A stretch of DNA of 64,000 nt from Bordetella pseudohinzii (lineage in GTDB: Bacteria; Pseudomonadota; Gammaproteobacteria; Burkholderiales; Burkholderiaceae_B): assembly GCF_000657795.2 (NCBI RefSeq), contig NZ_JHEP02000004.1, positions 62,001 through 126,000 of the forward strand, given 5' to 3'. Both the position numbers and the translations under genes were made by a program. The notes below the pieces were generated by a model. It worked only from the letters and a program-made list of their open reading frames with translations, did no database searches and was not told the DNA's origin. Position 1 is the stretch's first letter. Each line of letters begins with the position of its first letter. This document shows, in pieces, positions 29,847 through 59,997 of the stretch.

Positions 29847-31727
29847 ATGTGTGGTGTTGCAGGTTTGATCCAGCTCGACGGTGTACCGGTTTCTCCGGTG
29901 GCGCTGCAACGCATGACCGACGCCATCGCCCATCGGGGGCCGGATGGCGAAGGGCATTGGATCGAGGGCAACGTGGGCCTGGGGCATCGGCGGCTGGCCA
30001 TCATCGATCTTTCGCCGGCCGGACATCAGCCGATGATGTCGGCGGATTCGCGCTATGTGCTGAGCTACAACGGCGAGATCTACAATTTCAGGGAGCTACG
30101 CGGCGAGCTGCAAGCGCAAGGCTGCCAGTTCCGGTCGCGCACCGACACAGAAGTCCTGCTGCATGCCGTCGCTGCCTGGGGCCTGGACCGGACACTGGCG
30201 CGACTGAATGGCATGTTCGCATTTGCCTTATGGGATCGCCAGGCAAGGCAATTGACGCTGGCACGCGACCGCTACGGCGTCAAACCGCTTTACTATAGCC
30301 TGCAAGGCAATATCCTGGCGTTCGGATCCGAGCAGAAGGCCATTCTTTCAAGGCCGGAGTTCGAACGCAAACTGGACCGCGAGGCCCTGTTCGAGTACTT
30401 CACGTTCCAGAATATCTTCACTGCCCGCACGTTGCTGCAGGATATCCAGCTCCTGCCAGCGGGACACTATGCCTCTATTGATCTGCGCAGCGCATCACCC
30501 GCGCTGAAGCCGGTCCAGTACTGGGATTTCGATTTCAGGGAGCCGGACTGTCAGGGAGACGACGAAGCCTACCGTGAAGAGCTAGGCCGTCTCTTTCACC
30601 AGGCCGTCAACCGACAGCTGGTCACGGACGTCGAGTTGGGCTCCTATCTGAGCGGTGGCATCGACTCCGGTTCGATCACCTCCATCGCGGCCGAGTCCCA
30701 TCCTTATATCAAGACGTTTACCTGCGGCTTTGATATGACATCGGCATCGGGCATAGAGCTCGGTTTCGATGAACGCAGCAAGGCCGAATACATGTCGTAC
30801 TGCTTCAAGACCGAGCACTATGAAATGGTGTTGAAGTCAGGCGATATGGAGCGCGTGCTGCCGCAGCTGGCTTGGCACCTGGAAGAGCCGCGCGTGGGTC
30901 AGAGCTATCCCAACTACTACGCAGCAAAGCTGGCTTCCAAGTTTGTCAAGGTCGTCCTGTCCGGGGCGGGCGGTGACGAGCTGTTCGGCGGCTATCCCTG
31001 GCGGTATTATCGGGCTGTCGTCAACGACGACTTTGAGCACTACATCGACAAGTATTACCAGTTCTGGCAACGGCTTGTGCCCAATACAGCCTTGCGCGGG
31101 ATGTTCGCGCCCATCTGGAAGGACGTCTCGGATGTCTGGACACGCGACATCTTCCGCGATGTGTTCAAGCAGCATGCCGACCAATTGTGCCGTCCGGAAG
31201 ACTACATCAACCACTCGCTTTACTTTGAGGCCAAGACCTTTCTGCACGGCTTGCTGGTTGTCGAGGACAAGCTGAGTATGGCGCACGGCCTGGAGTCGCG
31301 GGTTCCATTCCTGGACAACGATCTTGTGGACTTCGCCATGAGCTGCCCCGTGCGGCTCAAGCTCAATAACCTGGCCGAGGTCGTCAAGATCAACGAGAAC
31401 GAGCCGGGCAGCAAGGTGCATGCCTATTTTGAGCGGAATCGCGATGGCAAGACGATTCTGCGCGATGTCATGCGCAGCCGTTTGCCTAAGGACATCGCGC
31501 GGGCGGAGAAACAGGGTTTCTCGGCCCCCGACTCGAGCTGGTTCAAGGGCGACAGCCTGGAATTCGTCAAGCGCACTCTCATGACCGGAAACTCGCCGCT
31601 ATACGAGTTGATGGATGCCCGGGTGGTGAGGAAATTAGTCGAGGAGCATCTGAGTGGGGCGCGCAATCGCCGCTTGCTCATCTGGTCCCTGTTAAGCGTC
31701 GACGCATGGCTGCGCCAGACGTTCTAA
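29847..31727 (+). CDS. Asparagine synthetase-like glutamine amidotransferase (first copy)
   Basis: This 626-residue protein has an N-terminal class II glutaminase domain (Cys2 nucleophile in MCGVAGLIQLDG, then AIAHRGPDGEG) and a C-terminal ATP-dependent synthetase domain with YLSGGIDSGS and LSGAGGDELFGGY. In O-antigen loci such proteins (WbpS-like) convert a sugar uronic acid to its uronamide using glutamine nitrogen. Both half-sites look intact. I chose the ATG at 29847 because Cys2 must follow the initiator Met. It lies just past a terminator-like hairpin and 35 bases before a formyltransferase gene. It is one of three paralogues in the locus. Confidence 0.9.
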   Translation: MCGVAGLIQLDGVPVSPVALQRMTDAIAHRGPDGEGHWIEGNVGLGHRRLAIIDLSPAGHQPMMSADSRYVLSYNGEIYNFRELRGELQAQGCQFRSRTDTEVLLHAVAAWGLDRTLARLNGMFAFALWDRQARQLTLARDRYGVKPLYYSLQGNILAFGSEQKAILSRPEFERKLDREALFEYFTFQNIFTARTLLQDIQLLPAGHYASIDLRSASPALKPVQYWDFDFREPDCQGDDEAYREELGRLFHQAVNRQLVTDVELGSYLSGGIDSGSITSIAAESHPYIKTFTCGFDMTSASGIELGFDERSKAEYMSYCFKTEHYEMVLKSGDMERVLPQLAWHLEEPRVGQSYPNYYAAKLASKFVKVVLSGAGGDELFGGYPWRYYRAVVNDDFEHYIDKYYQFWQRLVPNTALRGMFAPIWKDVSDVWTRDIFRDVFKQHADQLCRPEDYINHSLYFEAKTFLHGLLVVEDKLSMAHGLESRVPFLDNDLVDFAMSCPVRLKLNNLAEVVKINENEPGSKVHAYFERNRDGKTILRDVMRSRLPKDIARAEKQGFSAPDSSWFKGDSLEFVKRTLMTGNSPLYELMDARVVRKLVEEHLSGARNRRLLIWSLLSVDAWLRQTF

Positions 31728-32718: not shown

Positions 32719-33483
32719 ATGCAATCGGATCAAGACGAACTTGCCCTGAAGTATCACTACGCGGATTTCACGCGTTCGGCGTATCGCGAGCAGCTGCGTG
32801 CCGCGCGGGCACATTACACCTTCAGGCACTTTCATGATTACAGGGAGGACGAACGCTTTGTGTTGTGGCGCCACGATGTCGACTTTTCGGTCCACGCGGC
32901 CCGCAAGCTGGCCGAGATCGAGGCGCAGGAGAAGGTAAGCAGCACCTTTTTCCTGTTGCCGCATAGTGATTTCTACAATCTGATGGATCGCGTCATCCTG
33001 CGCCAGGTCGAAGGTATCCTGGCCCTGGGCCACCGTCTGGGCCTGCACTTCGATTGTGGCTATTACGGCGTCAAGGCGGTTGACCAGCTGGAGGACCTGC
33101 TGTACTTCGAGGCCCGCCTGCTTGAGCGCCTGTTCGGCCAGGCCATTGATGTATTTTCCTTCCATAATCCAGATGTCTGGATGCTTGAGCAGCGGGATGC
33201 ACGCTACGGCGGCCTGATCAATACGTATTCGGCCTACTTCCGCGACCAAGTGGGTTATTGCTCGGATTCCAATGGGTACTGGCGCCATCGCCGCCTGGCC
33301 GAGGTGCTGGCCAAGGGCGAAGACCATTGCTTGCAGGTGCTGACTCATCCGGCCTGGTGGGTGGACACGCCCATGAGTCCGCGTGAGCGCGTCGAACGCT
33401 GCGTGCGCGGCCGGGCCGAGGCCACGCTGCGCCAGTATGACAATGACCTTGCCGCGTTTGGCCGCAAGAATGTCGGGCGCTAA
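32719..33483 (+). CDS. Polysaccharide deacetylase-like protein (CE4/NodB fold)
   Basis: This 254-residue protein has features of carbohydrate esterase family 4. The RHDVDFSVHAARKL segment near residue 51 matches the metal-binding Asp-Asp-type motif, LGLHFDCGYYG has the histidine position, and LTHPAWWVD near the C-terminus fits a late catalytic His motif. There is no signal peptide, so it probably acts on a cytosolic sugar nucleotide or lipid-linked glycan. Bordetella O-antigen loci carry a CE4-like protein named WbmS; this may be its counterpart, but that is from memory. It is closely followed by a second formyltransferase gene (4-base gap). Confidence 0.75.
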   Translation: MQSDQDELALKYHYADFTRSAYREQLRAARAHYTFRHFHDYREDERFVLWRHDVDFSVHAARKLAEIEAQEKVSSTFFLLPHSDFYNLMDRVILRQVEGILALGHRLGLHFDCGYYGVKAVDQLEDLLYFEARLLERLFGQAIDVFSFHNPDVWMLEQRDARYGGLINTYSAYFRDQVGYCSDSNGYWRHRRLAEVLAKGEDHCLQVLTHPAWWVDTPMSPRERVERCVRGRAEATLRQYDNDLAAFGRKNVGR

Positions 33484-33487
33484 GCAG

Positions 33488-34321
33488 ATGAAGACGGTAT
33501 CGTCCACGCAGCAATCGACGACGCGCCTGGCCTTGTTCGTCGACGGCGGTGGCCTGGCCGACCTGTGGTCCAGGCTGCCGTCGCAGGCCCGGATTTGCGC
33601 CATCGTAGGCGCGGGTATCCGGCCACAGTACTTCGATGCCCTTGCGGGGCGGGCGGCCGAGGCGGCTTGTCCTTTCCTGGTCCAGCCGCGCCGCGACGAT
33701 CCGGGTTACGCGGAGTTCGTGGCGCAATTGGCGCGCACCCGGCCCACCCGTTTGCTGGCGCACTCATATTCCATGATCCTGCGCCCCGAGGTGCTGGAAC
33801 TGGTGGATTACGATGCCTTGAACGTCCATGCCGCTCTCTTGCCGCGCAATCGTGGCCCCAATCCCATCCAATGGGCCATGATCAACGACGAGCCGGCCAG
33901 CGGCGTCAGCCTGCATTATCTCGACGAAGGCCTGGATACCGGGCCGGTGGTGGCCCGCTCGGCGGTGGCCATCGAGGAGGGAGACACCTGGGTTACTTTG
34001 GCGCAGCGCGTGCATGCCGCGACGCAGCAGCTGCTGAATGCCTACCTGCCAGGTATTGTTGCCGGAGGGCTTGCCTGCCACCCGCAGGCCGAAGACGCGG
34101 CGACGCGCAACCCGCGCCTGAACGCGGACTCGCCCAGATTGGATGTGGCGAACATGACGGACAGGCAGATGTTCAATTGGATTCGTGCCCAAGTCCGGCC
34201 ATTGGGCGGCGCCTATGTGGAACGCGGCAACGGCGAGCGGTTGCACGTGCCCGAGTATGTGCCCATGCAGGACATCGCGGTGCTGCGCGGCCGCCTGCGG
34301 GCTTGGTTGGAGCAGGCATGA
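33488..34321 (+). CDS. Second formyltransferase-fold protein
   Basis: This 277-residue protein has the full formyltransferase catalytic set: Asn and His in ALNVHAALLPRNRGPNPIQW and Asp in HYLDEGLDTGPVV. A C-terminal segment (RQMFNWIRAQVRPLGGAYVE) resembles that of sugar N-formyltransferases. I chose the ATG at 33488, 4 bases after the deacetylase stop; the frame is open further upstream, but that is a shadow of the previous gene. Its stop overlaps the WbqC-like start. Unlike the first copy it keeps the usual Asn, so the two copies probably act on different substrates or positions. Confidence 0.82.
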   Translation: MKTVSSTQQSTTRLALFVDGGGLADLWSRLPSQARICAIVGAGIRPQYFDALAGRAAEAACPFLVQPRRDDPGYAEFVAQLARTRPTRLLAHSYSMILRPEVLELVDYDALNVHAALLPRNRGPNPIQWAMINDEPASGVSLHYLDEGLDTGPVVARSAVAIEEGDTWVTLAQRVHAATQQLLNAYLPGIVAGGLACHPQAEDAATRNPRLNADSPRLDVANMTDRQMFNWIRAQVRPLGGAYVERGNGERLHVPEYVPMQDIAVLRGRLRAWLEQA

Positions 34322-35034
34322 TGACGCATCGGATATGCGCGATACATCAACCCAATTTTTTCCCATGGCTGGGCTATTTCGACAAGATCGCGCGCAGCGA
34401 TGTGTTCATCCTGCTGGATGATGTCCAGTACAGTCACGGCAGCTGGACCAATCGCGTGCAGATGCGGATCTCGGGGCAACCCAAATGGGTGACCGCGCCG
34501 GTGGACCGCTCCTATCACGGTGGGCGAGCCATCCGCGATATGCGTTTCAGTCCCATCAATCGTGGATGGCGCGAGAAAGTCAGCCGGGCCATCGCGATGT
34601 CGTATGCGCGCGCGCCGTATTTTCGCGAGGCCTTTCCGCTGGTGGAAGCGATGTTGATGCGCCAGACTGAGAGTTTGTCCGAGTTCAACATCGGGGCAAT
34701 CGTCGAGATCTGCGCCCTCCTAGGGATTCCCCGCGAGAAGCTGTTGATAAGTTCGGATCTCGGTGCGGTGTCGTCCGCCACCGATCTGCTGATCGATCTG
34801 ACGCGGCGCGCGGGGGCGGATGCGTATATGTGCGGTGGGGGGACCTCGGGCTATCAGGAAGATGAAAAGTTCCGCGCGGCGGGTATCGGTCTGATTTACC
34901 AAGGTTTTCGTCACCCGGTGTATCCGCAGCACGGACAGACGGAGTTCAATACCGGCCTTTCCATCGTGGACGCCTTGATGGAGACCGGCGTCCAGGGCAC
35001 AAGATCCCTGCTGGCGGGCGCCGGCCGGGGATAG
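34318..35034 (+). CDS. WbqC family protein
   Basis: The 238-residue product begins MMTHRICAIHQPNFFPWLGY and includes DVFILLDDVQYSHGSWTNRV, CGGGTSGYQEDEKF and the HPVYPQHG segment. These are hallmarks of the WbqC-like family found in polysaccharide loci. The family has been suspected of acyltransferase activity in O-antigen decoration (glycine or similar groups), but I treat that as unproven. The ATG overlaps the formyltransferase stop (ATGA), which indicates coupled translation. Start could be 34318 or the next codon. Confidence 0.85.
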   Translation: MMTHRICAIHQPNFFPWLGYFDKIARSDVFILLDDVQYSHGSWTNRVQMRISGQPKWVTAPVDRSYHGGRAIRDMRFSPINRGWREKVSRAIAMSYARAPYFREAFPLVEAMLMRQTESLSEFNIGAIVEICALLGIPREKLLISSDLGAVSSATDLLIDLTRRAGADAYMCGGGTSGYQEDEKFRAAGIGLIYQGFRHPVYPQHGQTEFNTGLSIVDALMETGVQGTRSLLAGAGRG

Positions 35035-35053: not shown

Positions 35054-36352
35054 GTGAATATCAGGGAAGTCGTTTTCGGCGAATTTTTCAAGCGTCATCC
35101 GAAGGCGATGATGAAGTACGTGCTGGAGCCCTTGCACCGCGCGCGGCGGCGTATCGCCCCGCGGCGGGCGGTGCTGTTCTGTGGGCAGTCCTACTACCAT
35201 GCCTGGTACTTGTCGCGCGAGTTGCGCAGGCTGGGCTGGCAGGCCGATGTGCTGAACTGGGACTTGAATCCCGCTTCGCAGATCTACTACCACGGACACG
35301 ATTTCCACTTCGCCGATGAGAAGTACCAGTCCTTGGAGGCCAAACTCGATTTTTTCTTTGAAGCCATCGACAGGTACGACATCTTCCATTTCGCCAATAT
35401 TGGGGGGCTGTCGTTCGGTTTCCAGTTGAGCGGCTATTTCAAGGAGAATTTCTGGGAGCATTTCGAGATTGACCTGCTCAGGGCGCTGGGAAAGAAGATC
35501 GTCTATTCCAACACAGGCTGTATGGACGGGGTATCCCAGACCTCGTTCTCGCAATGGGGGCCCATATCGCCCTGCGCTTCATGCAACTGGCGCAACCACC
35601 CGGAAGTGTGCAGCGACGAAGGCAATCTCACCTGGGCCAGATTCCGCAATTCCGTGGCGGACTACCAATGCAATATCGGCGGCAACCGCGCGGATTACAA
35701 CGATGATCCCCGTGTCCATGAGGCGCCGGGCTTTTACTGCCTGGACAAGGATCTCTGGCGGCCGGATCTGGAAATACCTGAGGCCTATCGGCTTGAGGAC
35801 AGGCCAGGCGTGGTGCGGCTTTATCATGTGATCGGCAACAAGGACGCCCGCACGGACAAGGAAGGCACGAATATCAAGTCTTCGCATATCTACGTGCCCC
35901 TGATCGAACGGCTCAGGGCCGAAGGCCATGATGTTGAGCACCTGTCTTACCACCATGTGCCGAACAGGGAGATCCGCTTCTACCAGGCGCAGGCCGACAT
36001 CGTGCTGGATATGCTGACCTTTGGTTTTTTCGGAGCCAACGGACGCGAGGCCTTGATGCTGGGCAAGCCGCTGGTCTGTTTCATCCGGCCGGAATGGCTG
36101 GAAAGCATGCGGGTGGAGTTTCCCGAGTATGTCGACGAATTACCCGTGGTGCAGGCCAACCCCGGCAATGTATACCAGGTCGTCAAGCGGCTCATCGAGA
36201 ATCGGGATGAGCGTGAAGAGATCGGACGGCGCAGCCGGGCATTCGCTGTCAAATGGCATTCATCGCATGCCGGCGCGCGGCACTTCGACCGGGTCTATGC
36301 GGGCCTGCTCAGAGGCCGGCGCCTGTTGAGAAAGGAGCCCACGAATGGCTGA
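35054..36352 (+). CDS. Probable glycosyltransferase (GT-B type)
   Basis: This 432-residue protein lacks a close family I can name but looks like a GT-B glycosyltransferase. The N-terminal half has AVLFCGQSYYHAWYLSRELR and DIFHFANIGGLSFG, like the acceptor domain. The C-terminal half has ADIVLDMLTFGFFGANGREA followed by LMLGKPLVCFIRPEW, like the donor-nucleotide domain. A cysteine-rich stretch (PCASCNWRNHPEVC) is unusual. The GTG start at 35054 is preceded by GGAG. It overlaps the first ABC ATPase by 8 bases. Confidence 0.7.
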   Translation: MNIREVVFGEFFKRHPKAMMKYVLEPLHRARRRIAPRRAVLFCGQSYYHAWYLSRELRRLGWQADVLNWDLNPASQIYYHGHDFHFADEKYQSLEAKLDFFFEAIDRYDIFHFANIGGLSFGFQLSGYFKENFWEHFEIDLLRALGKKIVYSNTGCMDGVSQTSFSQWGPISPCASCNWRNHPEVCSDEGNLTWARFRNSVADYQCNIGGNRADYNDDPRVHEAPGFYCLDKDLWRPDLEIPEAYRLEDRPGVVRLYHVIGNKDARTDKEGTNIKSSHIYVPLIERLRAEGHDVEHLSYHHVPNREIRFYQAQADIVLDMLTFGFFGANGREALMLGKPLVCFIRPEWLESMRVEFPEYVDELPVVQANPGNVYQVVKRLIENRDEREEIGRRSRAFAVKWHSSHAGARHFDRVYAGLLRGRRLLRKEPTNG

Positions 36353-37505
36353 TTTGGCATGCCGGCCGCTCGCGCTGGTCTGCGAAGGTGTGGAAAAAGT
36401 CTTTCCGATCGATGGGCAGAGCAATGTGTGGCGCATGCTGCTGGGCCTGCCGCTCAGGGGCAAGACTTTCCATGCCCTGAAAGGCGTGTCGCTATCGGTG
36501 CCGCGCGGCAAGATAGTGGGCATTCTGGGTCATAACGGCGCCGGTAAAAGCACCTTGCTGCGTATTCTTGGCGGCGTCTACAACGCCACCCGCGGCTCTT
36601 TGCATGTCGACGGCCTGGCCTGCGGGCTGTTCGAGCTAGGCGGCATGGGAAACCGGCATCTGACGGGACGGGAGTACGCCCTCCGGTATCTTTCCATCAT
36701 GGGTGTGCCGCGCAAGCGGCAGCAGCCCTATCTGGATGACATCCTGGATTTCTCGGAGCTGGAGGGCAGTTTCGACCAGCGGATTCTGACGTATTCCGCC
36801 GGTATGGCCGCGCGCCTGTATTTCGCGACGGCTACGGCCTTGCAGCACGAGATTTACCTGATCGACGAACTCTTGTCGGTGGGCGATGAGCATTTCCAGG
36901 CCAAGTGCTGGAGCCGCATGCGCAAGTTATTGCTCAACGGCGCCTCCGGCATCTTGGTCACGCATGACTGGGTATCTGTGCTTAGGCTGTGCGAGCAATC
37001 GCATATTCTCAAGCGCGGCCAGCTGGTGGCTTCCGGGCCCAGCGACAAGGTGGTTGTCCAGTATCTGGACATCGACGTTCCGCAGGCGGGACAGGCGCGG
37101 TTCGTCGAAGATCACCCGACGCTGTATCAGGCCGTCAGCGGCGAGGACGCGGAGTTCGTGTTCGAGATTGAATCCTCGATTGATGAACCGGTGGCATTTT
37201 CTTTTTCCGTCGAGACGCTGCGGGTCGGAACCGGCTGGGAGATCCTGCTTATCGAAAGCAATATGCTGGTCGCCACACACGCCGGCCGCCATCAGGTTCG
37301 CGTCAAGATAGACGGTCTGCCGCTGGTCACCGGGCAGTACTCCCTGAACGTTGCATTGAGCCGGCACCGTGCGTCGCTGGACGAGCCGGCACAGGTTCAC
37401 GACTCGCGCAGTTGGACGACGGGTAACGGTTGGGACCTGACCGTGTCCGGGCCCGCGGCCGATGCGGCGGTTCTTCTGCCGGTGGAAATCAAGGTGGCGC
37501 AGTGA
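36345..37505 (+). CDS. Wzt-like ABC transporter ATPase with C-terminal domain (first copy)
   Basis: This 386-residue protein is the ATPase of a polysaccharide ABC exporter. It has Walker A GHNGAGKST (62-70), signature YSAGMAARLYFA, Walker B YLIDELLSVGD with the catalytic Glu, and the H-loop VTHDWVSV, so it should hydrolyse ATP. After about residue 245 a 140-residue beta-rich domain follows, as in Wzt proteins, where it recognises the finished glycan end. It is the first of two adjacent Wzt-type ATPases; only one permease gene follows. It overlaps the second by 4 bases. Confidence 0.85.
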   Translation: MADLACRPLALVCEGVEKVFPIDGQSNVWRMLLGLPLRGKTFHALKGVSLSVPRGKIVGILGHNGAGKSTLLRILGGVYNATRGSLHVDGLACGLFELGGMGNRHLTGREYALRYLSIMGVPRKRQQPYLDDILDFSELEGSFDQRILTYSAGMAARLYFATATALQHEIYLIDELLSVGDEHFQAKCWSRMRKLLLNGASGILVTHDWVSVLRLCEQSHILKRGQLVASGPSDKVVVQYLDIDVPQAGQARFVEDHPTLYQAVSGEDAEFVFEIESSIDEPVAFSFSVETLRVGTGWEILLIESNMLVATHAGRHQVRVKIDGLPLVTGQYSLNVALSRHRASLDEPAQVHDSRSWTTGNGWDLTVSGPAADAAVLLPVEIKVAQ

Positions 37506-38674
37506 CGCTCTATATAAAGGCAAATGAACTGGTCAAGAAGTTCGCCCTGCGCGGCACCGCCGCTGGCGAAGCTTCGGAGAAGGTCGCCGTCGACCATGTC
37601 AGCCTGGAGATCGGTGAAGGCGAACGCATCGGCATCATCGGCCGCAACGGTGCTGGCAAATCCACGCTGCTGCATATGGTGGCGGGATTGTCCACACCGA
37701 GTTCCGGCTCCCTGGAGGTGTCCGGCTCCGTGACGTCCATCATGACGTTGGGCGTGGGACTGCGCGAGCAGGCGACGGGTCGGGAGAACATCTATATCGA
37801 TGGCGAGGTGCAGGGCAAGTCGCGCGAAGAGATCGATGCGGTTGTGGACAAGATCATTGCGTTCGCCGATATCGGTGAGTTCATCGATTATCCCGTCCGG
37901 ACTTATTCGACCGGGATGAAATCGCGGCTGGCCTTTGCCATGATTTCCTGCCTGGAACCGGAGATCCTGATCATTGATGAAGCCCTGTCCGCCGGCGACG
38001 CCAAGTTTTCAGCCAAGGCAACAGAGAAAATCCGCGAAATCTGCGCCAAGGGCCGCATCGTCATCGTCGTGTCGCACTCCATGGGCGCGATACAGGCCAT
38101 CTGCAATCGCTGCATCTGGATGGATGGCGGACGTGTCGTCATGGATGGCACGCCCGCAAACGTCATCGAGAAATATATCGATTCGGTTCGCTCGGAGGAC
38201 GAAGAGCGCCTGCTCCAGCGCTTCAAGGCCCAGGCGCGGGACGTCGAATTGCCGCAGGGCTGGTCGATCCAGGATTTCAGGATGACGCAGGGCGGCGATG
38301 GCGACCGCACGCTCATCGAGGCGGGCGAGCCGGCCTCGCTCCTCGTGGCCCTGCAGACGCCGCGGTACGCCCAGGCAACTGCAGTATCATGCGCGGTCAC
38401 TCGTCTTGACGGCACCTTGATGTGGCGTGCCAGCGTCCCGCCCGCCTGCCAGGATGACCAGGGGCGGATCAAGTTTGAGCTGGACATGGTGCGGGTTGTT
38501 CTCGGCCAGGGCGTATATCGCTTCGATATCGAAATAGATCGCGGCGAGAGCCAGAGTACCGTGCTCTCGAAAATCTTTGAAGTCTATACACAGAACCCGC
38601 CCTCGGGAGGCGTGCCGATGCTTCTTTATCCGCTTCAAATCGAGGCCAAGCCTGTTTTCTTGAATCAAGGGTGA
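37502..38674 (+). CDS. wzt: Wzt-like O-antigen ABC transporter ATPase (second copy)
   Basis: The 390-residue product has Walker A GIIGRNGAGKST (44-55), signature YSTGMKSRLAFA, Walker B EILIIDEALSAGD and H-loop VVSHSMGAI, all intact. TGRENIYIDGEVQGKSREEI is the usual Wzt/TagH-type helical segment. A C-terminal domain of about 150 residues (YRFDIEIDRGESQSTVLSKI within it) fits a glycan-recognition module. The GTG start overlaps the first ATPase (GTGA), and its own stop overlaps the permease start. This copy is closer to the classical Wzt in sequence, as judged by eye. Confidence 0.87.
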   Translation: MTLYIKANELVKKFALRGTAAGEASEKVAVDHVSLEIGEGERIGIIGRNGAGKSTLLHMVAGLSTPSSGSLEVSGSVTSIMTLGVGLREQATGRENIYIDGEVQGKSREEIDAVVDKIIAFADIGEFIDYPVRTYSTGMKSRLAFAMISCLEPEILIIDEALSAGDAKFSAKATEKIREICAKGRIVIVVSHSMGAIQAICNRCIWMDGGRVVMDGTPANVIEKYIDSVRSEDEERLLQRFKAQARDVELPQGWSIQDFRMTQGGDGDRTLIEAGEPASLLVALQTPRYAQATAVSCAVTRLDGTLMWRASVPPACQDDQGRIKFELDMVRVVLGQGVYRFDIEIDRGESQSTVLSKIFEVYTQNPPSGGVPMLLYPLQIEAKPVFLNQG

Positions 38675-39465
38675 ATATCGTGCTTGGTTTTCATAAGCGT
38701 GATCTGCAATTGGCGTGGAATTTCTTCGTCGTCAATCTGCGTGATAAATACCTAGGCTCAGCCCTGGGCATGGTCTGGGCTGTCGTCAATCCCTTGTTCA
38801 TGTTGGGAATATTTACGTTCGTCTTTGGCTTCGTCTACAAATCGAAACTGCCGGGGGCCGACACCACGCTGGCCTATGTCGTCTGGTTGATCAGCGGCTA
38901 TGGCCCTTGGATCGCGATATCGGAGTCGATCACCCTGGCGGCCTCCTCCGTGGTGGCGGCGTCCGGACTGGTCAAGAACCTGGCCTTCAAGTCCGAAATC
39001 CTGCCCATTTCGGCGGCGGCGACGGGCATCGTGCCACTTTGCGTGAGCTTGATATTTCTGGCCATTCTGATGATTGTGGACGGGAATCCGCCGTCCTGGC
39101 ATATCGCCTGGGTGCCGTTGATAGTATTCCTGCAGTTTTTCTTTGTCGCCGCAATCGGTCTCTGGCTGTCCGCAATCACCGTATTCGTAAGGGATATGAC
39201 CTTCGTTATACCTAATGCCTTGGTCATGATTCTTTTCGGAACGCCGATTTTCTATCCCATCGATGTCATGCCGGCGCTTGTCAAAACGGTGTCCCAGTAC
39301 AATCCTTTTTTCATCCTGGCTGAGGGATATCGGCAGCCGCTCATCCACCACCAGAGCCCGGATCCGGGCGGCCTGGCATATCTGATCGTGCTGGCCGGCT
39401 TGCTGTTCTATTTCGGCCTGCGGGCCTTCCGGCGAGTTAAGGGGAATTTCGAAGCCGTTCTGTAG
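38671..39465 (+). CDS. wzm: O-antigen ABC transporter permease Wzm (ABC-2 type)
   Basis: This 264-residue inner-membrane protein is the permease of the polysaccharide ABC exporter, which moves undecaprenyl-linked O-antigen to the periplasm. It has about six helices and the typical DLQLAWNFFVVNLRDKYLGS opening, with LGMVWAVVNPLFMLGIFTFV, and FGTPIFYPIDVMP before the last helices. The GTG start overlaps the ATPase stop (GTGA). Only one permease is seen for two ATPases, so it is either a homodimer served by both ATPases or part of a heteromeric transporter. Confidence 0.88.
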   Translation: MNIVLGFHKRDLQLAWNFFVVNLRDKYLGSALGMVWAVVNPLFMLGIFTFVFGFVYKSKLPGADTTLAYVVWLISGYGPWIAISESITLAASSVVAASGLVKNLAFKSEILPISAAATGIVPLCVSLIFLAILMIVDGNPPSWHIAWVPLIVFLQFFFVAAIGLWLSAITVFVRDMTFVIPNALVMILFGTPIFYPIDVMPALVKTVSQYNPFFILAEGYRQPLIHHQSPDPGGLAYLIVLAGLLFYFGLRAFRRVKGNFEAVL

Positions 39466-39522
39466 CATCCTGGTTTTCGGCCCCGGCCGCATTTGATTCC
39501 AGCAGAAGCCTTGGAGATGAAA

Positions 39523-40518
39523 ATGTTGAGGAAAGTTGTCCGGCGTATCCGCGCCATCCTGAAGGCTCCAGTCCCGGTCGCCGTTGCCCCGACGCTTGCG
39601 CCGGAGCCAGGGCCTGTTGTGGAGCCCGTGCCCGTCGCGAAACCCGCGACGCCGGTGCGTAGGGATCTCTCGGTCGGAGAATATTGGACTGAGCATAATG
39701 TCACCCTGCACCACGCCTTTGCCTCGCCAAAGGAGTCCCTGGATTACTTCTGGTGGCGTTGCGACCAGTACTACCCTTATATCGAACTCATGCCGGTGGC
39801 AGGGCAGGATGGCAAGGTCGTGCTGGATTTCGGCTGCGGACCGGGACATGATCTTGTCGGTTTCGGAACGTACTCCAAACCCGCGAAGCTATACGGCTAC
39901 GAGTTGTCGCCTTCGTCCCTCGACGAGGCGCGTAGCCGCTTGGCTTTGCATGGCATCGATGCCGAACTGATACAGGGGCAGGCGGATGAGCCGGTCTTGC
40001 CGCTGGCCGCCGCCAGTGTGGACTTCATTCACTCAAGCGGTGTGCTGCACCATGTCCCAGATATCGATAGCTGTTTGCGTGAGCTGCATCGCCTGCTTAA
40101 GCCCGACGGCAGCATGCAGGTCATGGTCTACAACCAGGACAGCCTCTGGTATCACCTCTACGTCGCCTATCAATGGCGGCTACAGTGGGGTCGGGATACC
40201 GATGTGAGCCTGCGCCAGGCCTTTGCGCGCAGCACGGACGGCGAAGAATGTCCGATCGCCAATGTCTATCGTCCGCAGGAATTTATCGACATCTGCCGCC
40301 GCAATGGTTTTTCGGCCACGTATCGCGGCGCGGCGATATCGATGCACGAAGCCAACCTGGCTCCGCTGCGTTTTTCCGCCATCCAGAATCGGCAGCTTCC
40401 CGAGGAAAACCGCAAGTTTCTATTGAGCCTCACTTTCGATGAACGGGGCTATCCACTACACAATGGCCATTATGCCGGCATCGATGCCTGCTTTGAGCTG
40501 AAGAAAGCAAATCAATAA
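39523..40518 (+). CDS. SAM-dependent methyltransferase
   Basis: This 331-residue protein has a class I methyltransferase fold: VVLDFGCGPGHDLVGFG (motif I), YGYELSPSSLDEARSRL, the acidic VDFIHSSGVLHHVPDID and LKPDGSMQVMVYN. A proline-rich N-terminal stretch (PVAVAPTLAPEPGPVVEPVP) precedes it. I chose the ATG at 39523, preceded by GGAG; an in-frame ATG at 39517 and a TTG further up exist. In this setting it probably O- or N-methylates a terminal sugar, which would fit methyl groups reported on Bordetella O-antigen ends, but the site is unknown. Confidence 0.85.
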   Translation: MLRKVVRRIRAILKAPVPVAVAPTLAPEPGPVVEPVPVAKPATPVRRDLSVGEYWTEHNVTLHHAFASPKESLDYFWWRCDQYYPYIELMPVAGQDGKVVLDFGCGPGHDLVGFGTYSKPAKLYGYELSPSSLDEARSRLALHGIDAELIQGQADEPVLPLAAASVDFIHSSGVLHHVPDIDSCLRELHRLLKPDGSMQVMVYNQDSLWYHLYVAYQWRLQWGRDTDVSLRQAFARSTDGEECPIANVYRPQEFIDICRRNGFSATYRGAAISMHEANLAPLRFSAIQNRQLPEENRKFLLSLTFDERGYPLHNGHYAGIDACFELKKANQ

Positions 40519-40533: not shown

Positions 40534-43194
40534 ATGAAGGCGTTCGTGAAAAGGCCCGAGAGATTCCTGCTGGTGTGCTATTTCGATCCGAATGGGATCG
40601 AGACGGTGCTGGACAATATCCAGTATTTGCGTACCTACTCGGATTTCACCATTGATATCTTCAACCTCTTCGGCTCGGTGTCGCCGTTATCCGAAGGCAG
40701 AATGGTGAATCTCGCCGGATATGACGGCATCATTCTTCACAATACGATCTCGTACAACCCCGTCAATCTCGAAGCCATTGATCAGCGTTTTTTGCCGCGC
40801 CTGCGCGACTTCGACGGGGTCAAGGTGATGTTCAAGCAGGATGAACAGTACCGCAGCGGCGCGATCGCCGGCTTCATCGGCAGCCGCCGTTTCGATCTGG
40901 TGTTGAGCTGCATGTGGCCCGAAGAGCGCCACAAAATGTACCCCAAGGACCAGGTCGGGGACGCCGAGTTCATGCAGATGCTCACGGGCTACGTGACCCC
41001 GAAGCTGCTGGCTCGCCAGTCCAAGGCCACGCAGCGCGATATCGATATTTCCTATCGGGGCTCGCTGCAACCGCTGTATTTCGGCCGGCTCGCCTACGAC
41101 AAGCGAACGATCGGCGACGATGTCATCCGGGCGGCGCAGGGCAGGAACCTGAAGCTGGATATCTCCAGCCGCTGGGAAGATCGCTTGATGGGCGATGATT
41201 GGTTCAATTTCCTGGCGCGTTCCAAGATTACGCTGGGTGTGGAATCGGGCGCGAGCATTTTCGACTTTGAGGGCGACGTCGAAGCGCTTTGCCGGCGCCT
41301 GGAGCAAGAGCGGGATCGCTTCGAGAGCGAGCACGAATACTCCGAATGGGTGCTCAAGCAGCTCGAGCCCTATGAGGGAAATGTCTACTACAACCAGATT
41401 TCGCCTCGGCATTTCGAGGCGGGCGCCGCGCGCGCGCTGCAAGTCATGCACGATGGCAGGTACTCGGACATTTTCAAGCCTTGGCAGCACTTCGTGCCGC
41501 TGAATCGCGATCTCTCCAATTTCGACCAGGTTTGTGAGTATGTGTATGACGAGCGCCTGCGTTCCGAGATCGTTGATCGCACTTACGAAGAAATCATTGC
41601 CAATCCGCGCTACTCCATGCAGGCCTTCGTGGCGTCGGTCGATGAGCGGCTTGACCGGTTGTTGCAGGATAGGCCGTGTGCCGGCCGGCCAATATACAAG
41701 GCAGACGGCCCGGCCTGTAAGAACGTCGTGTTGTTGTGCGCACATCGACCCAAAGTCGATCCGCGCGTGGGCTGGATGGCCGATCACGCGCCCGAAGGCA
41801 TGCGCATCCATGTTGTGGGCGTCGACACCAATCTGGCGAGCGCCACGTTCGAAACCCGGCCCAACGGGGCGATCGAGAACGTCATTCCGCGCGTGGATAC
41901 CCGGCGCTGGCGCGAGCTATTCCTGGGCGAGGGCATGGGCGGCGTGGGCATGCAGGCCATGGCCCGGCTGCAGATGCTCTGTGACCGTCCGCCGCGGCAG
42001 CTGGCCGCCATGCTGGGCGGCGATCCGGATTCGCCGCGCGCCGCCGATTGCGCCTGGCTGTGCGCCTATCTGCTCAGGAGCAATGCGGCCCTGATCGATG
42101 CGGTGCTCCAGGCGCGCGGCGTCGATGCCATCATCGTGGCCGATTTCGAGGCTTTGCCCGCTGGAGCCGTCCTCAAGGAGGCCTTGGGCGTTCCGCTCAT
42201 TTTCGACGCGCATGAGTTCTGGCCGACTTCCCTGGGGCCGGCCGCGCAAAGCTGGGAGGTCGAGACATGGCATCGTTTCGAGCGCGATCTGCTGCAAGCA
42301 GTTGATTCCGCCTATTCGGTCTCGCCCGAGCTCGCCAGGCATATGGCGGCTTTCTATGGTCGGCCTTTTGGCGCGGTGCCCAATTGCGAGCCGCTGGCTG
42401 CCGCAATGGCCATGAGGGAGTATCCGGTTCGTGATATCTGCACGTTCCTGTTTCAGGGGAATTTCGCCGAGGGACGCGGCATTGAACAATTGATCAATGC
42501 CTGGCCGCTGACGAATGAAAACGTGCATCTGCAATTGCGCGGACCCGATCGCCCCTTCAAGCGCGAGATGATCGAATTGGCGCGCGCCACCGGCCTGCTG
42601 GATAAACGCATCTTTTTCCCGCCAGCCGTCTCGGAGGATGAACTCGTCCAAGAGGCCGCTAAAGCCGATGTCGGCGTGATTCCGTATGATCCGGCCGTGT
42701 CGGTGAACAACAAGTTCTGCAGCCCCAACAAACTGTCGCAATATATGGCCGCGCAACTGCCCGTCCTGGCCAATAATCTCGTGTTCGTCGGCAGAATCAT
42801 CCGCGAGGCGGGCGTCGGGTCCACCGTCGATTTCACCAATGCGCAGGCCCTGGCCGACAAGGTGAACGAGATCGCCGGCGCGCCGGATGTCCGGGCTCGG
42901 CAAGGCGAGTCAGGGCGCCGATATTTCACGTCGACCTATCATTGGGAGGCGGTCAGCCGGGACTTCTACGCCGATGTGTCCACGCTTATCGGCGATCGGC
43001 CGTCCAAGTCCGGGGGGCGGTTTGAAATGCGCCCGCCCCCGGCGCCGCAGCCGGATGAAGCCAGCCCGGCCAATGTCTTGGCGCCGGTGGGCAAAACGGC
43101 CGTGCTGTATCGTGTGTGGAACCGTTTGCCTCCTGGGATGCAGAATGTCTTGAGGCCCGCGGCGCGGGCCATGTTGAGGCGATTGCGCGGCTGA
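40534..43194 (+). CDS. Two-domain glycosyltransferase, 886 residues
   Basis: This large protein seems to hold two glycosyltransferase units. The first 390 residues resemble CgeB-like/GT-B proteins (DLVLSCMWPEERHKMYPKDQ, SYRGSLQPLYFGRLAYDKR, LARSKITLGVESGASIFDFE). After a linker near 390-405, the rest resembles GT4 proteins: VPLIFDAHEFWPTSL, then FLFQGNFAEGRGIEQLINAW, AKADVGVIPYDPAVSVNNKF and CSPNKLSQYMAAQLPVL. Each half may add one sugar, making the O-antigen linker or repeat. It is the last intact gene of the first block. Confidence 0.8.
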   Translation: MKAFVKRPERFLLVCYFDPNGIETVLDNIQYLRTYSDFTIDIFNLFGSVSPLSEGRMVNLAGYDGIILHNTISYNPVNLEAIDQRFLPRLRDFDGVKVMFKQDEQYRSGAIAGFIGSRRFDLVLSCMWPEERHKMYPKDQVGDAEFMQMLTGYVTPKLLARQSKATQRDIDISYRGSLQPLYFGRLAYDKRTIGDDVIRAAQGRNLKLDISSRWEDRLMGDDWFNFLARSKITLGVESGASIFDFEGDVEALCRRLEQERDRFESEHEYSEWVLKQLEPYEGNVYYNQISPRHFEAGAARALQVMHDGRYSDIFKPWQHFVPLNRDLSNFDQVCEYVYDERLRSEIVDRTYEEIIANPRYSMQAFVASVDERLDRLLQDRPCAGRPIYKADGPACKNVVLLCAHRPKVDPRVGWMADHAPEGMRIHVVGVDTNLASATFETRPNGAIENVIPRVDTRRWRELFLGEGMGGVGMQAMARLQMLCDRPPRQLAAMLGGDPDSPRAADCAWLCAYLLRSNAALIDAVLQARGVDAIIVADFEALPAGAVLKEALGVPLIFDAHEFWPTSLGPAAQSWEVETWHRFERDLLQAVDSAYSVSPELARHMAAFYGRPFGAVPNCEPLAAAMAMREYPVRDICTFLFQGNFAEGRGIEQLINAWPLTNENVHLQLRGPDRPFKREMIELARATGLLDKRIFFPPAVSEDELVQEAAKADVGVIPYDPAVSVNNKFCSPNKLSQYMAAQLPVLANNLVFVGRIIREAGVGSTVDFTNAQALADKVNEIAGAPDVRARQGESGRRYFTSTYHWEAVSRDFYADVSTLIGDRPSKSGGRFEMRPPPAPQPDEASPANVLAPVGKTAVLYRVWNRLPPGMQNVLRPAARAMLRRLRG

Positions 43195-43746: not shown

Positions 43747-45663
43747 ATGTGCGGAATTTTTGGTGCAATCTGGCGTGAGAATCGACCGGCAGGTCTGATC
43801 GAAAAGCATCTACAGCTCGGCGTGGAGCGGCAGCGCCACCGGGGACCGGACGGTCATGGCCTGTGGATACACCCGGGCGGCCGTTTGGGCTTGGCGCATG
43901 TCCGACTGTCTATTATCGACCTGAATACCGGCGCGCAGCCCATGCGCGGCGCCTCGGGCAATGTCATCACGTACAACGGCGAGGTTTACAACTACATTGA
44001 GCTGCGCAGGGAGATCGGTGAAGAGCTGTTTGAAACGACTTCCGACACCGAAGTCATCCTGCGCGCCTATGAAAAATGGGGGCCGGATTGTGTTCAGAAG
44101 CTGGAAGGCATGTTTGCCTTCGCGATCTGGGATGAGAAGCGCGGCCAGCTTTTTGTTGCGCGCGACCGTTTCGGCATCAAGCCTTTCTATTACGCGGTCA
44201 GCCAGGGTGGTTTCTACTTTGCTTCCGAGATCAAGGGCCTGACGCCCTTCTTGCCGGAGGTCAAGACCGATGTCAACGCGCTGCACGATTATTTTGCCTT
44301 CCAGTTCTGTCTGGGCGAGAAGACGCTGTTCGATGGTGTGCGGCAACTGAAGCCGGCTCATTGCGGCTATGTGGACCCCAGCCTTGGGCTGCAGCAGCGG
44401 CAGTACTGGGAGGTGCATTACAACCTGGATTGGGACCATACCGAGCGCTACTTCGTCGAACAGGTGCGCGAGTGTCTGCGTGATTCGGTCACCTTGCACA
44501 TGCGCAGCGACGTTGAAGTGGGCGCCTATATCAGCGGCGGCGTGGATTCCAGCCTGGTCGCGGCGATGGCCAGGCAGGAGCGCAAGGGCGAGCGGTTCCA
44601 GGGCTTTACCGGCAAATTCTCGTTCAGCGAATCCTTTGACGAGTCGCGCTATGCGCAGGTTCTGGCTGATGAGCATGATATTCAACTGCACCAGGTCGAT
44701 ATCTCGGAGAACGATTTCGTCGACGACATCAGCAAGGTGATCTATCACCTGGACCAGCCCGTCGCCGGTCCCGGATCTTTCCCGCAGTATGAGGTGTCGC
44801 GGCTGGCCAAGAACCATGTCAAGGTCGTGCTGGGCGGGCAGGGCAGCGACGAGATGTTCGGCGGGTATGCCCGATACCTGATTGCCTATTGGGAGCAATG
44901 CATCAAGGGCGCGCTGGACGGCACGATGCACAATGGCAATTACATCGTGACCTACGAGTCCATCATTCCCAACCTGCGGACGCTGCGCAATTACAAGCCC
45001 TTGATCCAGGAGTTCATGGCCGAGGGTATCTTCGATACCCGGGACAAGCGCTACTACCGCCTGATCAATCGCTCGAACACCTTCGGGAATGTGGTCAATT
45101 GGGATATGTTCGCCAACAAGGCTTCTTCCTTTGACGATTTCAAGGAAATCTTCTGGGGCAAGAACGTCGGCCAGGAATCGTATTTCGATTCGATCACGCA
45201 CTTCGATTTCAAGACGCTGCTGCCCGCCCTGCTGCAAGTGGAAGACAGGATGAGCATGGCGCATGGCATCGAGTCGCGCGTGCCTTTCCTGGATCACAAG
45301 CTCATCGAGCTGGTGGCCACCGTGCCTGCCAACATTAAGTTCCAGAACGGCGAACTCAAGCGCCTGCTGCGGCTGGCTTTCCAGGATACCTTGCCGCAGG
45401 CGATTCGCGAGCGCAAGGACAAGATGGGATTCCCGGTCCCCCTGCAGGTGTGGATGAAGCAGGGCGGCAAGGCGCGCGAGTTCATCCTTGATACCTTCCG
45501 TGGCGCGAACGCGCGCACGCGCGAGTATCTTGCGCCGGGTTTCGATATCGAGACGATGATGCAGCAAGAGGGTTTGTTCAGCCGCAATATCTGGGCATTC
45601 CTGAGCCTTGAACTGTGGCAGCAACAGTTCCACGACGTACATCAACAGACATTGAGCATTTGA
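43747..45663 (+). CDS. Asparagine synthetase-like glutamine amidotransferase (second copy)
   Basis: This 638-residue protein has Cys2 in MCGIFGAIWRENRPAG, RQRHRGPDGHG, the ATP loop YISGGVDSSLVAAM and the LGGQGSDEMFGGYARYL segment. Like the other two copies it should amidate a uronic acid of the O-antigen, forming a uronamide. I chose the ATG at 43747 because the glutaminase needs Cys2. It is the first gene of a block with three SDR genes and lies 9 bases before the first of them, so the epimerised uronic acid is a plausible substrate. By position it may correspond to wbmI of B. bronchiseptica. Confidence 0.9.
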   Translation: MCGIFGAIWRENRPAGLIEKHLQLGVERQRHRGPDGHGLWIHPGGRLGLAHVRLSIIDLNTGAQPMRGASGNVITYNGEVYNYIELRREIGEELFETTSDTEVILRAYEKWGPDCVQKLEGMFAFAIWDEKRGQLFVARDRFGIKPFYYAVSQGGFYFASEIKGLTPFLPEVKTDVNALHDYFAFQFCLGEKTLFDGVRQLKPAHCGYVDPSLGLQQRQYWEVHYNLDWDHTERYFVEQVRECLRDSVTLHMRSDVEVGAYISGGVDSSLVAAMARQERKGERFQGFTGKFSFSESFDESRYAQVLADEHDIQLHQVDISENDFVDDISKVIYHLDQPVAGPGSFPQYEVSRLAKNHVKVVLGGQGSDEMFGGYARYLIAYWEQCIKGALDGTMHNGNYIVTYESIIPNLRTLRNYKPLIQEFMAEGIFDTRDKRYYRLINRSNTFGNVVNWDMFANKASSFDDFKEIFWGKNVGQESYFDSITHFDFKTLLPALLQVEDRMSMAHGIESRVPFLDHKLIELVATVPANIKFQNGELKRLLRLAFQDTLPQAIRERKDKMGFPVPLQVWMKQGGKAREFILDTFRGANARTREYLAPGFDIETMMQQEGLFSRNIWAFLSLELWQQQFHDVHQQTLSI

Positions 45664-45672: not shown

Positions 45673-46614
45673 ATGAAGAAGATCTTTATCACCGGTATTT
45701 GCGGCCAGATCGGGTCGCATATTGCCGAACTCCTGCTGGAACGCGGCGACCAGGTCGTGGGCATCGACAACTTCGCCACCGGGCGCCGCGAGCACCTGAA
45801 AGACCACCCGAACCTGACGTTCGTCGAGGGCACGATCGCCGACCACGCCCTGGTCAACAAGCTGATCAGCGACCTCAAGCCCGACGCCGTCGTGCATACG
45901 GCGGCTTCCTATAAGGATCCGGACGACTGGTACAACGACACGCTGACCAACTGCGTCGGCGGCTCCAACGTCGTTCAGGCTGCCAAGAAGAACAACGTCG
46001 GGCGTTTTGTCTACTTCCAGACCGCGCTGTGCTACGGTGTCAAGCCCATCCAGCAGCCGGTCCGTCTGGATCATCCGCGCAATCCGGCCAATAGCAGCTA
46101 TGCCATTTCCAAGTCGGCCAATGAAGACTACCTGGAGTATTCGGGGCTGGATTTCGTCACTTTCCGCCTGGCCAATGTCGTGGGCCCGCGCAATGTGTCG
46201 GGTCCGCTGCCGATCTTCTTCCAGCGCCTGTCCGAAGGCAAGCGCTGCTTTGTGACCAAGGCCCGCCGCGACTTCGTGTTCGTCAAGGACCTGGCGCGCG
46301 CCACCGTCAAGGCGATCGATGGCGTGGGCCATGGGGCTTATCACTTTTCGTCGGGCACCGATGTGGCCATCAAGGAGCTCTACGACGCCGTGGTCGAGGC
46401 CATGCAGTTGCCTGCCTATCCGGAACCCGAGATCCGCGAACTGGGACCGGACGACGCGCCTTCCATCCTGCTCGACCCGTCCCGCACGGTCCAGGATTTC
46501 GGCAAGATCGAATTCACGCCCTTGAAGGAAACCGTGGCGGCCGCCGTTGCCTATTTCCGTGAGTACGGCGTGTCGGGGGGCTATACCCACCTGAAGATCA
46601 ACGAGAACAAATAA
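45673..46614 (+). CDS. wbmH: NAD-dependent nucleotide-sugar epimerase (WbmH-like SDR)
   Basis: This 313-residue extended SDR has an NAD motif GICGQIGSHIAELL near residue 8, and the catalytic region FQTALCYG with SSYAISKSANED (YxxxK). It is a close paralogue of the next gene (shared DNFATGRRE/DNFATGKRE, AASYKDP/AAAYKDP and FQTALCYG segments). In B. bronchiseptica three consecutive SDRs, WbmF, WbmG and WbmH, are needed for O-antigen and probably epimerise UDP-diacetamido-uronic acids at C4 and C5. I assign letters by order and length, so the symbol is tentative. Confidence 0.82.
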   Translation: MKKIFITGICGQIGSHIAELLLERGDQVVGIDNFATGRREHLKDHPNLTFVEGTIADHALVNKLISDLKPDAVVHTAASYKDPDDWYNDTLTNCVGGSNVVQAAKKNNVGRFVYFQTALCYGVKPIQQPVRLDHPRNPANSSYAISKSANEDYLEYSGLDFVTFRLANVVGPRNVSGPLPIFFQRLSEGKRCFVTKARRDFVFVKDLARATVKAIDGVGHGAYHFSSGTDVAIKELYDAVVEAMQLPAYPEPEIRELGPDDAPSILLDPSRTVQDFGKIEFTPLKETVAAAVAYFREYGVSGGYTHLKINENK

Positions 46615-46619
46615 TCACC

Positions 46620-47552
46620 ATGCGTATCCTCATCACTGGCGGCGCCGGCTGCCTGGGTTCCAATCTGATCGAGCACTGGCTGCCCAAAGGCCACGAGATT
46701 CTGGTCCTCGACAACTTCGCCACGGGTAAGCGCGAGGTGTTGCCGCCGGTGGCGGGGCTGACAGTGGTCGAAGGCTCGGTGGCCGACGCTACTTTGGTGG
46801 ATCGCGTCTTTGACGAGTTCCAACCCTCGCATGTGGTGCACAGCGCCGCTGCGTACAAAGATCCATCGGACTGGGCGGAAGATGCCGCCACCAATGTGCG
46901 TGGTTCCATCAATGTGGCCAAGGCGGCCTCGCGGCTGGGGGTCAAGCGCTTGCTGAATTTCCAGACGGCCCTGTGCTATGGACGCCCGAAGCAAGTTCCC
47001 ATCCCGGCTGATCATCCCACCGCGCCTTTCACCAGCTATGGGATTTCCAAGACGGCAGGCGAGGCCTATCTGTTCATGGGCGATGTCCCGGTCGTGTCGC
47101 TGCGCCTGGCAAACATCACGGGGCCGCGCCTGGCGATCGGTCCGATTCCGACGTTTTATAAGCGTCTGAAGGCGGGCCAGAAGTGCTTTTGCAGCGATAC
47201 GGTGCGCGATTTCCTGGATATGTCGGATTTCCTGAGCATCGCGGAGCTGGCGTTGGAGGATGGACGTCCCACCGGCGTGTTCAATGTGTCCACCGGCGAG
47301 GGGCATTCGATCAAGGAAGTGTTTGATGTAGTCCTGGACTATGTCGGCGCCACCCTGGCCGAACCGGTGCCGGTGGTGCCGGCCGGCGCCGACGACGTCC
47401 AGAGCGTCGTGCTGGATCCGCGCGTCACGGAGCAGGCTTTCGGTTGGAGGGCCGCCGTGAATTTCAAAGACACCATCACGGGCCAGTTGGCCTGGTACGA
47501 CAAGTATGGCGTGACGGACATCTTCAGCCATCTTTCCGCGCCCAAAGCCTGA
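46620..47552 (+). CDS. wbmG: NAD-dependent nucleotide-sugar epimerase (WbmG-like SDR)
   Basis: This 310-residue extended SDR has GGAGCLGSNLIEHWL near residue 7, FQTALCYGRPKQVPIPADHP, and the catalytic TSYGISKTAGEAY. RLANITGPRLAIGPIP follows the pattern of the previous gene, and the two probably arose by tandem duplication. In B. bronchiseptica the WbmG homologue is thought to be a C4 epimerase of a diaminouronic acid nucleotide; the assignment here is by position. It starts 5 bases after the previous stop. Confidence 0.82.
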   Translation: MRILITGGAGCLGSNLIEHWLPKGHEILVLDNFATGKREVLPPVAGLTVVEGSVADATLVDRVFDEFQPSHVVHSAAAYKDPSDWAEDAATNVRGSINVAKAASRLGVKRLLNFQTALCYGRPKQVPIPADHPTAPFTSYGISKTAGEAYLFMGDVPVVSLRLANITGPRLAIGPIPTFYKRLKAGQKCFCSDTVRDFLDMSDFLSIAELALEDGRPTGVFNVSTGEGHSIKEVFDVVLDYVGATLAEPVPVVPAGADDVQSVVLDPRVTEQAFGWRAAVNFKDTITGQLAWYDKYGVTDIFSHLSAPKA

Positions 47553-47574
47553 TTCAAGAGAATCCGTTTCAAAT

Positions 47575-50540: not shown

Positions 50541-50637
50541 TTGTAATCGGGTTGCCAGGCGGTTCAGGGAGGGGCACGGGCCCGCAGCGCCCGATGGTAT
50601 CATGGCATCGAATGCCGTCGTCCCCCCTCACGCCGCG

Positions 50638-52909: not shown

Positions 52910-52920
52910 CCGGGCCCGCC

Positions 52921-54807: not shown

Positions 54808-54955
54808 CAGGGGGGCGGACCAAAAGGGGCGGTGATGCGGCAATTTTAGCGACTGCTCAGGGGGATAGGCGGCTGGGGCCGGTCCGGGCGCCAGGAAAGT
54901 CTGTCCGGTGCGGCCTGGCGTCTTCCGAGATGCCCGCCGGCGGCCGCGGCCTGCC

Positions 54956-58724: not shown

Positions 58725-58728
58725 GGGT

Positions 58729-59982: not shown

Positions 59983-59997
59983 GATGGACAGCCCTGG

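Follow-up and report, generated by a model that had tools for sequence, protein, structure and literature searches.

Why should a polysaccharide exporter, whose permease is usually accompanied by a single ATPase, be encoded together with two complete ones? This question is raised by a 64,000-nucleotide stretch of Bordetella pseudohinzii DNA (hereafter the window; contig NZ_JHEP02000004.1, positions 62,001 to 126,000), in which two Wzt-type ATP-binding cassette (ABC) ATPases, termed A1 and A2, directly precede a single Wzm-type ABC-2 permease (Table 1). We consider it probable, at about 0.7, that the three proteins assemble into a single O-antigen exporter of predicted composition Wzm2-A1-A2, in which an obligate ATPase heterodimer sits on a Wzm homodimer. 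Such a pump would probably carry long surface polysaccharides across the inner membrane. An initial annotation of the same DNA had proposed a heterodimeric ATPase pair, and this remains the best-supported reading because of the strict co-occurrence of the two ATPases, the overlap of their genes, the single permease and the fixed, complementary changes in the two proteins; the pairing itself keeps the standing of a prediction from sequence.

Conserved association of A1, A2 and Wzm

As the initial annotation had described, the window encodes two adjacent, overlapping ATPases with intact motifs, each with its own C-terminal tail, followed by one permease; coordinates, frames and motifs (18/18) all agree with that description. 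The A1/A2 and A2/Wzm overlaps both measure 4 nucleotides (GTGA), the GTG start of A2 lying at 37502 and its mechanically called open reading frame (ORF) beginning earlier, at 37430. As cut for analysis, the tails comprise approximately 139 residues in A1 and 155 in A2. Wzm adjoins the ATPase genes inside a polysaccharide locus whose neighbouring genes encode sugar enzymes according to Pfam, and it constitutes a subfamily of its own (434.7 bits; the best other match reaches 155.8 bits in 300 genomes of the order and 158.2 bits in a further genus).

A single scan of genome contigs with A1 as the query recovered 21 loci, five of which (L028-L032) were left out as weak matches of 25-45% identity to unrelated ABC ATPases. 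In all 16 remaining loci (L012-L027), which were selected by A1 alone, A1 is followed by A2 and then by Wzm. Their hosts are Cupriavidus, Trinickia, Methylococcaceae, Accumulibacter, Polaromonas, Dechloromonas, four Legionella, Sedimenticola, two betaproteobacterial bins and one Nitrospirae bin, many of the loci coming from metagenome bins. The same trio occurs in a further external locus, the 17th (L086), which came to light later and solely through the A1-tail profile, so that with the window included the association holds in 18 of 18 cases. An in-frame A2 start lies between 20 nucleotides before the end of A1 and the position directly after it in 15 of the 16 external loci. The recurrence of this set of three in distantly related bacteria makes it probable that the two motors operate as a fixed, asymmetric pair. 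Chance adjacency is ruled out by the 16/16 loci and L086 against the single Wzt of 20/20 control loci described below.

The trio is conserved where it is found, but it is rare and patchily spread. Genomes with a match to the A1-tail profile number at least 1 of 300 in the order and at least 1 of 398 in the phylum, in each case the window's own genome, and at least 2 of 398 in another family, one of them the Trinickia already known (by coordinates); these are lower bounds because at most 10-13 candidates were scored per genome, and the genome sets, that of the genus included, overlap, so that their counts are not additive. When all candidates were scored, the profile recovered nine of nine known carriers. 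The initial annotation had suggested looking for the same pair in other Bordetella and in Achromobacter; in the genus, the profile matched only the window's own genome among 15. Thus, a widespread system is not borne out by the order, phylum, genus or family sets.

Ordinary Wzm loci and the search for another permease

As controls we used ordinary Wzm loci from 300 genomes of the order, 125 of which have a match to the Wzm profile at E<=1e-20. Exactly one Wzt was present in each of the 20 loci opened (13.5-17 kb each; 20 of the 29 best-scoring), and within 1.5 kb of the 29 best-scoring ordinary Wzms there was one ATPase in 27 cases and none in range in two. One Wzt per Wzm is the usual condition without being strictly defining, while two stand beside Wzm in all 18 A1 loci, the window included.

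A second permease that might belong to the first ATPase had been named by the initial annotation as the result that would count against its proposal. No such orphan was found among the ABC-2 matches listed for the window's own genome or in nine A1 genomes. The own genome has one Wzm match at E<=1e-20; of the ten ABC-2 matches listed besides Wzm (11 in all), an ABC ATPase is encoded in the stretch retrieved around eight, and the remaining two (L004 and L005) lie immediately after the long frames of L009 and L008, which carry ATPases. At E<=1e-8, only one Wzm-like match was present in eight of the nine A1 genomes searched; in the ninth there was an additional match of the ordinary kind.

Two old ATPase lineages with opposite fixed changes

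A1 and A2 both display the features of Wzt-type nucleotide-binding domains (NBDs), namely Walker A and B, a YSxGM signature and the H-loop, in 18/18 orthologues each, and the best solved relative of either by profile is the Aquifex Wzt. The following residues are invariant in all 18 orthologues of each protein: 1) the Walker A lysine, K68 in A1 and K53 in A2; 2) the signature residues S151-G153 in A1 and S136-G138 in A2; 3) the Walker B pair D174-E175 in A1 and D159-E160 in A2; 4) the D-loop aspartate, D181 in A1 and D166 in A2, and the H-loop histidine, H207 in A1 and H192 in A2. These invariant catalytic motifs exclude a dead ATPase. One degenerate ATP site is frequent, though not universal, in heterodimeric ABC transporters; here there is none, the Walker A Lys, Walker B Asp-Glu, signature Ser-Gly and His all being kept (18/18), and the difference lies in the Q-loop residue.

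Scored against the consensus of 27 ordinary Wzts, the fixed changes of the two proteins are complementary. A1 keeps the Q-loop glutamate (Glu97) and has Gly102 in place of Phe and Tyr111 in place of Asn (18/18), whereas A2 has Thr82 in place of the Q-loop Glu and Thr137 in place of a signature Ser (18/18) and keeps the asparagine (Asn96). Ordinary Wzts further have a Tyr (25/27) and an Arg (23/27) that we took to be the gate-helix residues of PMC6379404, on the part of its text available. These positions fall in a gap in 17/17 A1 proteins, and most A2 proteins either lack them or have other residues there, in a region where the alignment is weak and some A2 starts are set short.

The NBDs of A1 and A2 are 35% identical over 199 residues. 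In a quick tree of NBDs, which carried long-branch warnings and whose rows included the 27 ordinary Wzts and three solved relatives, A1 forms one clade (Shimodaira-Hasegawa-like approximate likelihood ratio test, SH-aLRT, 100) and so does A2 (SH-aLRT 99). Since A1 served to pick the loci, its clade is partly trivial; no such selection acted on the A2 clade. As these clades are separate and stand on long branches, a recent tandem duplication is ruled out, and A1 and A2 represent two lineages of long standing whose fixed changes are opposite. The A1, A2 and Wzm trees have 9-10 of 15 splits in common pairwise (10/15 for A1 and A2), and conflicts with support >=95 are confined to the Accumulibacter, Dechloromonas and Polaromonas rows. 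Distance correlations among the A1 NBD, the A1 tail, the A2 NBD and Wzm range from 0.80 to 0.89, values that mostly reflect shared history.

The long A1 branch (2.4) might instead indicate that one ATPase, A1 being the better candidate, is no transport motor and has an accessory role in checking or terminating the chain, coupling the synthase genes to the exporter. The rebuilt stretch after its Q-loop (Phe to Gly102, Asn to Tyr111) and its position in the window directly after a glycosyltransferase-like gene would suit such a role. We nevertheless regard it as improbable, as the Walker A, Walker B, signature and histidine residues of A1 are invariant in the manner expected of a working NBD-dimer ATPase.

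Unequal C-terminal tails

The A1 tail has 16 invariant columns, among them W298, N335, W357 and N361, and a mean column identity of 49%, against seven invariant columns and 40% in the A2 tail, which has a PPxGGxPM-type motif near its end. The top three matches of the A1 tail are the solved Wzt cap domains 5hno, 8dky and 6o14 (E ~0.002), and Wzt_C is detected in 12/17 A1 tails at E<=0.1 (best 4.1e-6; the window copy, at 0.00057, is below the Pfam cut-off). For the A2 tail Wzt_C is detected in 1/17, and the solved cap domains appear at E 0.6-0.75. Profile-profile comparison with 26 ordinary tails gave E 3.9e-8 over 76 columns for A1 and E 1e-9 over 112 columns (probability 96.5) for A2, both being single-comparison values; the two tails compared with each other gave a probability of 63. 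By sequence resemblance, then, the A1 tail is a Wzt_C-like cap domain with a putative binding function.

In Aquifex the segment between the conserved GxY and the last strand carries a trap loop and a lid tryptophan, according to the available part of PMC9445017. Counted in residues as aligned, this segment measures 29-36 in A1, 23-27 in A2 and 26-32 in 24 ordinary tails, three of the 27 controls having been set aside as cut or overlong. With fewer than 26 residues in 13 of 18 A2 proteins, it is shorter there than in any of the 24 ordinary tails compared. HMMER pairs the invariant Trp357 of A1 with the Aquifex lid Trp. There is no Trp in the last 75 residues of A2 in 15/18 proteins, and the Trp of the other three stands at a different place, shortly behind the conserved GxY. 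Because the A1 tail is conserved and Wzt_C-like, and the A2 tail is less conserved and mostly shorter, the tails look more like one putative reader (A1) and one putative non-reader (A2). The suggestion of the initial annotation that the two domains read different chain ends is accordingly not supported.

In a rival reading, the permease is shared by two kinds of homodimeric complex, one of Wzm2 and two A1, the other of Wzm2 and two A2, which export chains with different ends or under different conditions. Each ATPase does keep all catalytic motifs, both tails are Wzt_C-like by profile comparison, and the several glycosyltransferase, formyltransferase and amidotransferase genes of the locus could make more than one end group. 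We consider this arrangement unlikely, since it would lead one to expect single losses, yet A1 without A2 occurs in none of the 17 external loci (no search was aimed at the converse, A2 on its own), the overlapping genes suggest that the two proteins are made in equal amounts, and the A2 tail is the less conserved one.

A proposed asymmetric exporter

Hence, we infer the A1-A2 pairing and the role of A1 as chain-end reader from these sequence features. In the proposed Wzm2-A1-A2 exporter, A1 and A2 would pair and both composite ATP sites would hydrolyse ATP; the A1 tail would bind a chemically marked non-reducing chain end, perhaps bearing a methyl group added by the product of the gene that follows Wzm, with the A2 tail as its dimer partner; and ATP cycles would feed the lipid-linked chain through the Wzm channel. 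An asymmetry that is only conformational in the Aquifex homodimer would here be written into two genes.

Several observations weigh against this proposal. Co-occurrence also fits two ATPases working in turn on one permease, and O-antigen is probably the substrate on the strength of gene content only. In L021 (Legionella septentrionalis) A1 and A2 are approximately 1.5 kb apart, and the spread outside Proteobacteria depends on one binned contig (L022, Nitrospirae), whose phylum is unsure because it is only 4.9 kb long. One Wzt per Wzm is not universal, two being present in 6 of 30 loci of a Burkholderia-like genus (see below). The Q-loop Glu is also absent from TarH and TagH, so that the Thr of A2 is no proof of a weak site and A2 need not be inactive. 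As for the tails, the profile match of A1 to ordinary tails stops before the last third and before W357, MAFFT places W357 some columns off the Aquifex lid Trp, and the last segment of A2 is of ordinary length in 5/18 proteins. The lid Trp is itself absent from 11/24 ordinary tails, making it a weak marker of cap reading, and its absence therefore does not prove a non-reader.

The closest characterized relative is the capped O-antigen exporter WzmWzt of Aquifex aeolicus (PDB 8dku and others), which resembles the present system in its NBD motifs, cap domain and single Wzm. According to the available part of PMC9445017, it differs in having one Wzt gene, the homodimer being asymmetric in conformation only, whereas here there are two diverged Wzts with opposite Q-loop changes; the same text describes a cap-domain dimer that sits on one NBD at a time, with one cap site binding the chain, and its authors think that either half could serve. 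The proposal bears on how, in O-antigen export, a symmetric pump that has two cap domains uses just one of them to grip a chain, and a natural pair would allow each half to be mutated alone, which is impossible in a homodimer. The wall teichoic acid exporters TarGH and TagGH have related NBDs, with TarH, TagH and A2 all having a Q-loop position without Glu, and the matched TarH and TagH chains align over the NBD only. They have one ATPase gene and Gram-positive hosts. Two different ATPase genes whose products pair in one transporter are found in the energy-coupling factor (ECF) transporters (EcfA and EcfA'), but these are importers with an unrelated membrane part.

A second arrangement with two Wzts

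Two wzt genes with one wzm, as in A1-A2-Wzm, are described in the Burkholderia type B, B2 and variant O-antigen loci of PMC3541218, with no mechanism given in the available part of that text. The arrangement is thus already in print, and the novelty of A1/A2 is reduced accordingly. A heterodimeric Wzt was not mentioned in the titles and abstract openings of the open PMC papers retrieved, a scope that leaves subscription journals mostly outside.

In a GC-rich Burkholderia-like genus (65 genomes, 39 with a Wzm match; 30 of 41 matched places examined) the 30 loci have one Wzt in range in 22 cases, none in two and two in six. Each of these six loci (L133-L138) has a Wzt-Wzm order together with a second, divergently transcribed full Wzt, and from this gene order they are likely to be the published type B/B2 loci. 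There is no second Wzm within the 16 kb fetched around them, although in one of these genomes, G870, a further Wzm is encoded on a separate contig. Unlike A1 and A2, the two copies are sister clades, 46-50% identical, and both score as ordinary Wzts with ordinary NBDs; they are therefore a separate, later pair. The lid Trp is missing from the Wzm-side copy (five Cys and one His of six) and kept in the divergent copy (6/6), as it is in the two nearest ordinary rows.

This milder pair shows that extra Wzt copies do arise, and one might likewise read the window as encoding an ordinary Wzm-Wzt transporter whose additional gene copy is redundant and has no particular role. This is highly improbable for A1 and A2, given that they have diverged so far, are both strongly constrained and were found together in every case. 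It is a more tentative thought, and one we hold as rather less than an even chance, that Wzt asymmetry became genetically fixed on at least two occasions, with one subunit reading the cap and the other not in either case: anciently in A1/A2, combining a homodimeric channel with an obligate heterodimeric motor, and by later duplication in the Burkholderia-like genus. A1/A2 would then have spread with its sugar-gene set over beta- and gammaproteobacteria and perhaps Nitrospirota.

Neighbouring genes and locus

Table 1. Genes of the A1-A2-Wzm locus in the window; counts refer to the 16 external loci
Feature	Position	Strand	Remarks
Asparagine-synthase-like amidotransferase	29850..31727	+	Relative of either amidotransferase in 15/16
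Polysaccharide-deacetylase-like protein, cassette member	32719..33483	+	Relative in 13/16
WbqC-family protein, cassette member	34321..35034	+	Pfam; relative in 14/16
432-residue protein, sub-threshold GT-B glycosyltransferase	35054..36352	+	Overlaps A1 start by 8 nucleotides
A1, Wzt-type ABC ATPase, 386 residues	36345..37505	+	ABC_tran (Pfam); NBD ~40-242, Wzt_C-like tail ~248-386
A2, second Wzt-type ABC ATPase, 390 residues	37502..38674	+	GTG start; ABC_tran (Pfam); diverged Wzt_C-like tail
Wzm, single ABC-2 permease, 264 residues	38671..39465	+	GTG start; ABC2_membrane, PF01061 (Pfam)
S-adenosylmethionine (SAM) methyltransferase, candidate capping enzyme	39493..40518	+	Pfam; directly after Wzm
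Glycosyltransferase, 886 residues, two GT-like halves	40534..43194	+	Relative of N-terminal half in 13/16, of C-terminal half in 2
Second asparagine-synthase-like amidotransferase	43747..45663	+	Count shared with 29850..31727 gene

Relatives of several sugar genes accompany the exporter across the external loci, and we therefore suppose that a common end or linker structure travels with its exporter; the accompanying conserved enzymes may make a common end group. The 432-residue gene has a relative upstream of A1 in 15/16 of these loci, not always adjacent. The deacetylase-like protein has no Pfam match itself, one orthologue matching below the cut-off. Methyltransferase matches occur in 9/16 loci, eight of them weak and one away from Wzm, and the two formyltransferases are matched in only 4 and 3 of the 16. 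The amidotransferase count is a shared one because the two proteins cross-match, and L022 and L014 are cut by contig ends. In the later-found L086 the deacetylase-like, WbqC, 432-residue, amidotransferase and glycosyltransferase genes are all present, and the methyltransferase is matched weakly. Among the 20 control loci there were no relatives (E<=1e-10) of the deacetylase-like, WbqC, 432-residue and first formyltransferase genes or of the N-terminal half of the glycosyltransferase, while an amidotransferase was present in 2/20 and a methyltransferase in 1/20. In L021 a 288-residue ORF with only a weak DUF2207 match lies between A1 and A2 (9242-10108, minus strand).

The G+C content of the 27-49 kb cluster is approximately 0.57-0.63, below the approximately 0.65-0.70 of most of its flanks (the outermost 2-3 kb are lower), which suggests that the cluster is an acquired O-antigen island. 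An Rfam search over the window returned nothing above the cut-offs. Three consecutive genes of the dehydrogenase/epimerase type occupy positions 45673-48633, with relatives of each in only 2-3 of the 16 external loci. With a further copy at 48669-50603, the window encodes three asparagine-synthase-like amidotransferases, suggesting several amide-bearing sugars. The region 48669-61080, mostly on the minus strand with two plus-strand ORFs at 50602-52909, is a sugar locus encoding a sugar transferase, a DegT aminotransferase, a UDP-GlcNAc 2-epimerase, glycosyltransferases and a Polysacc_synt_2 dehydratase, and we take it to resemble the Bordetella wlb locus.

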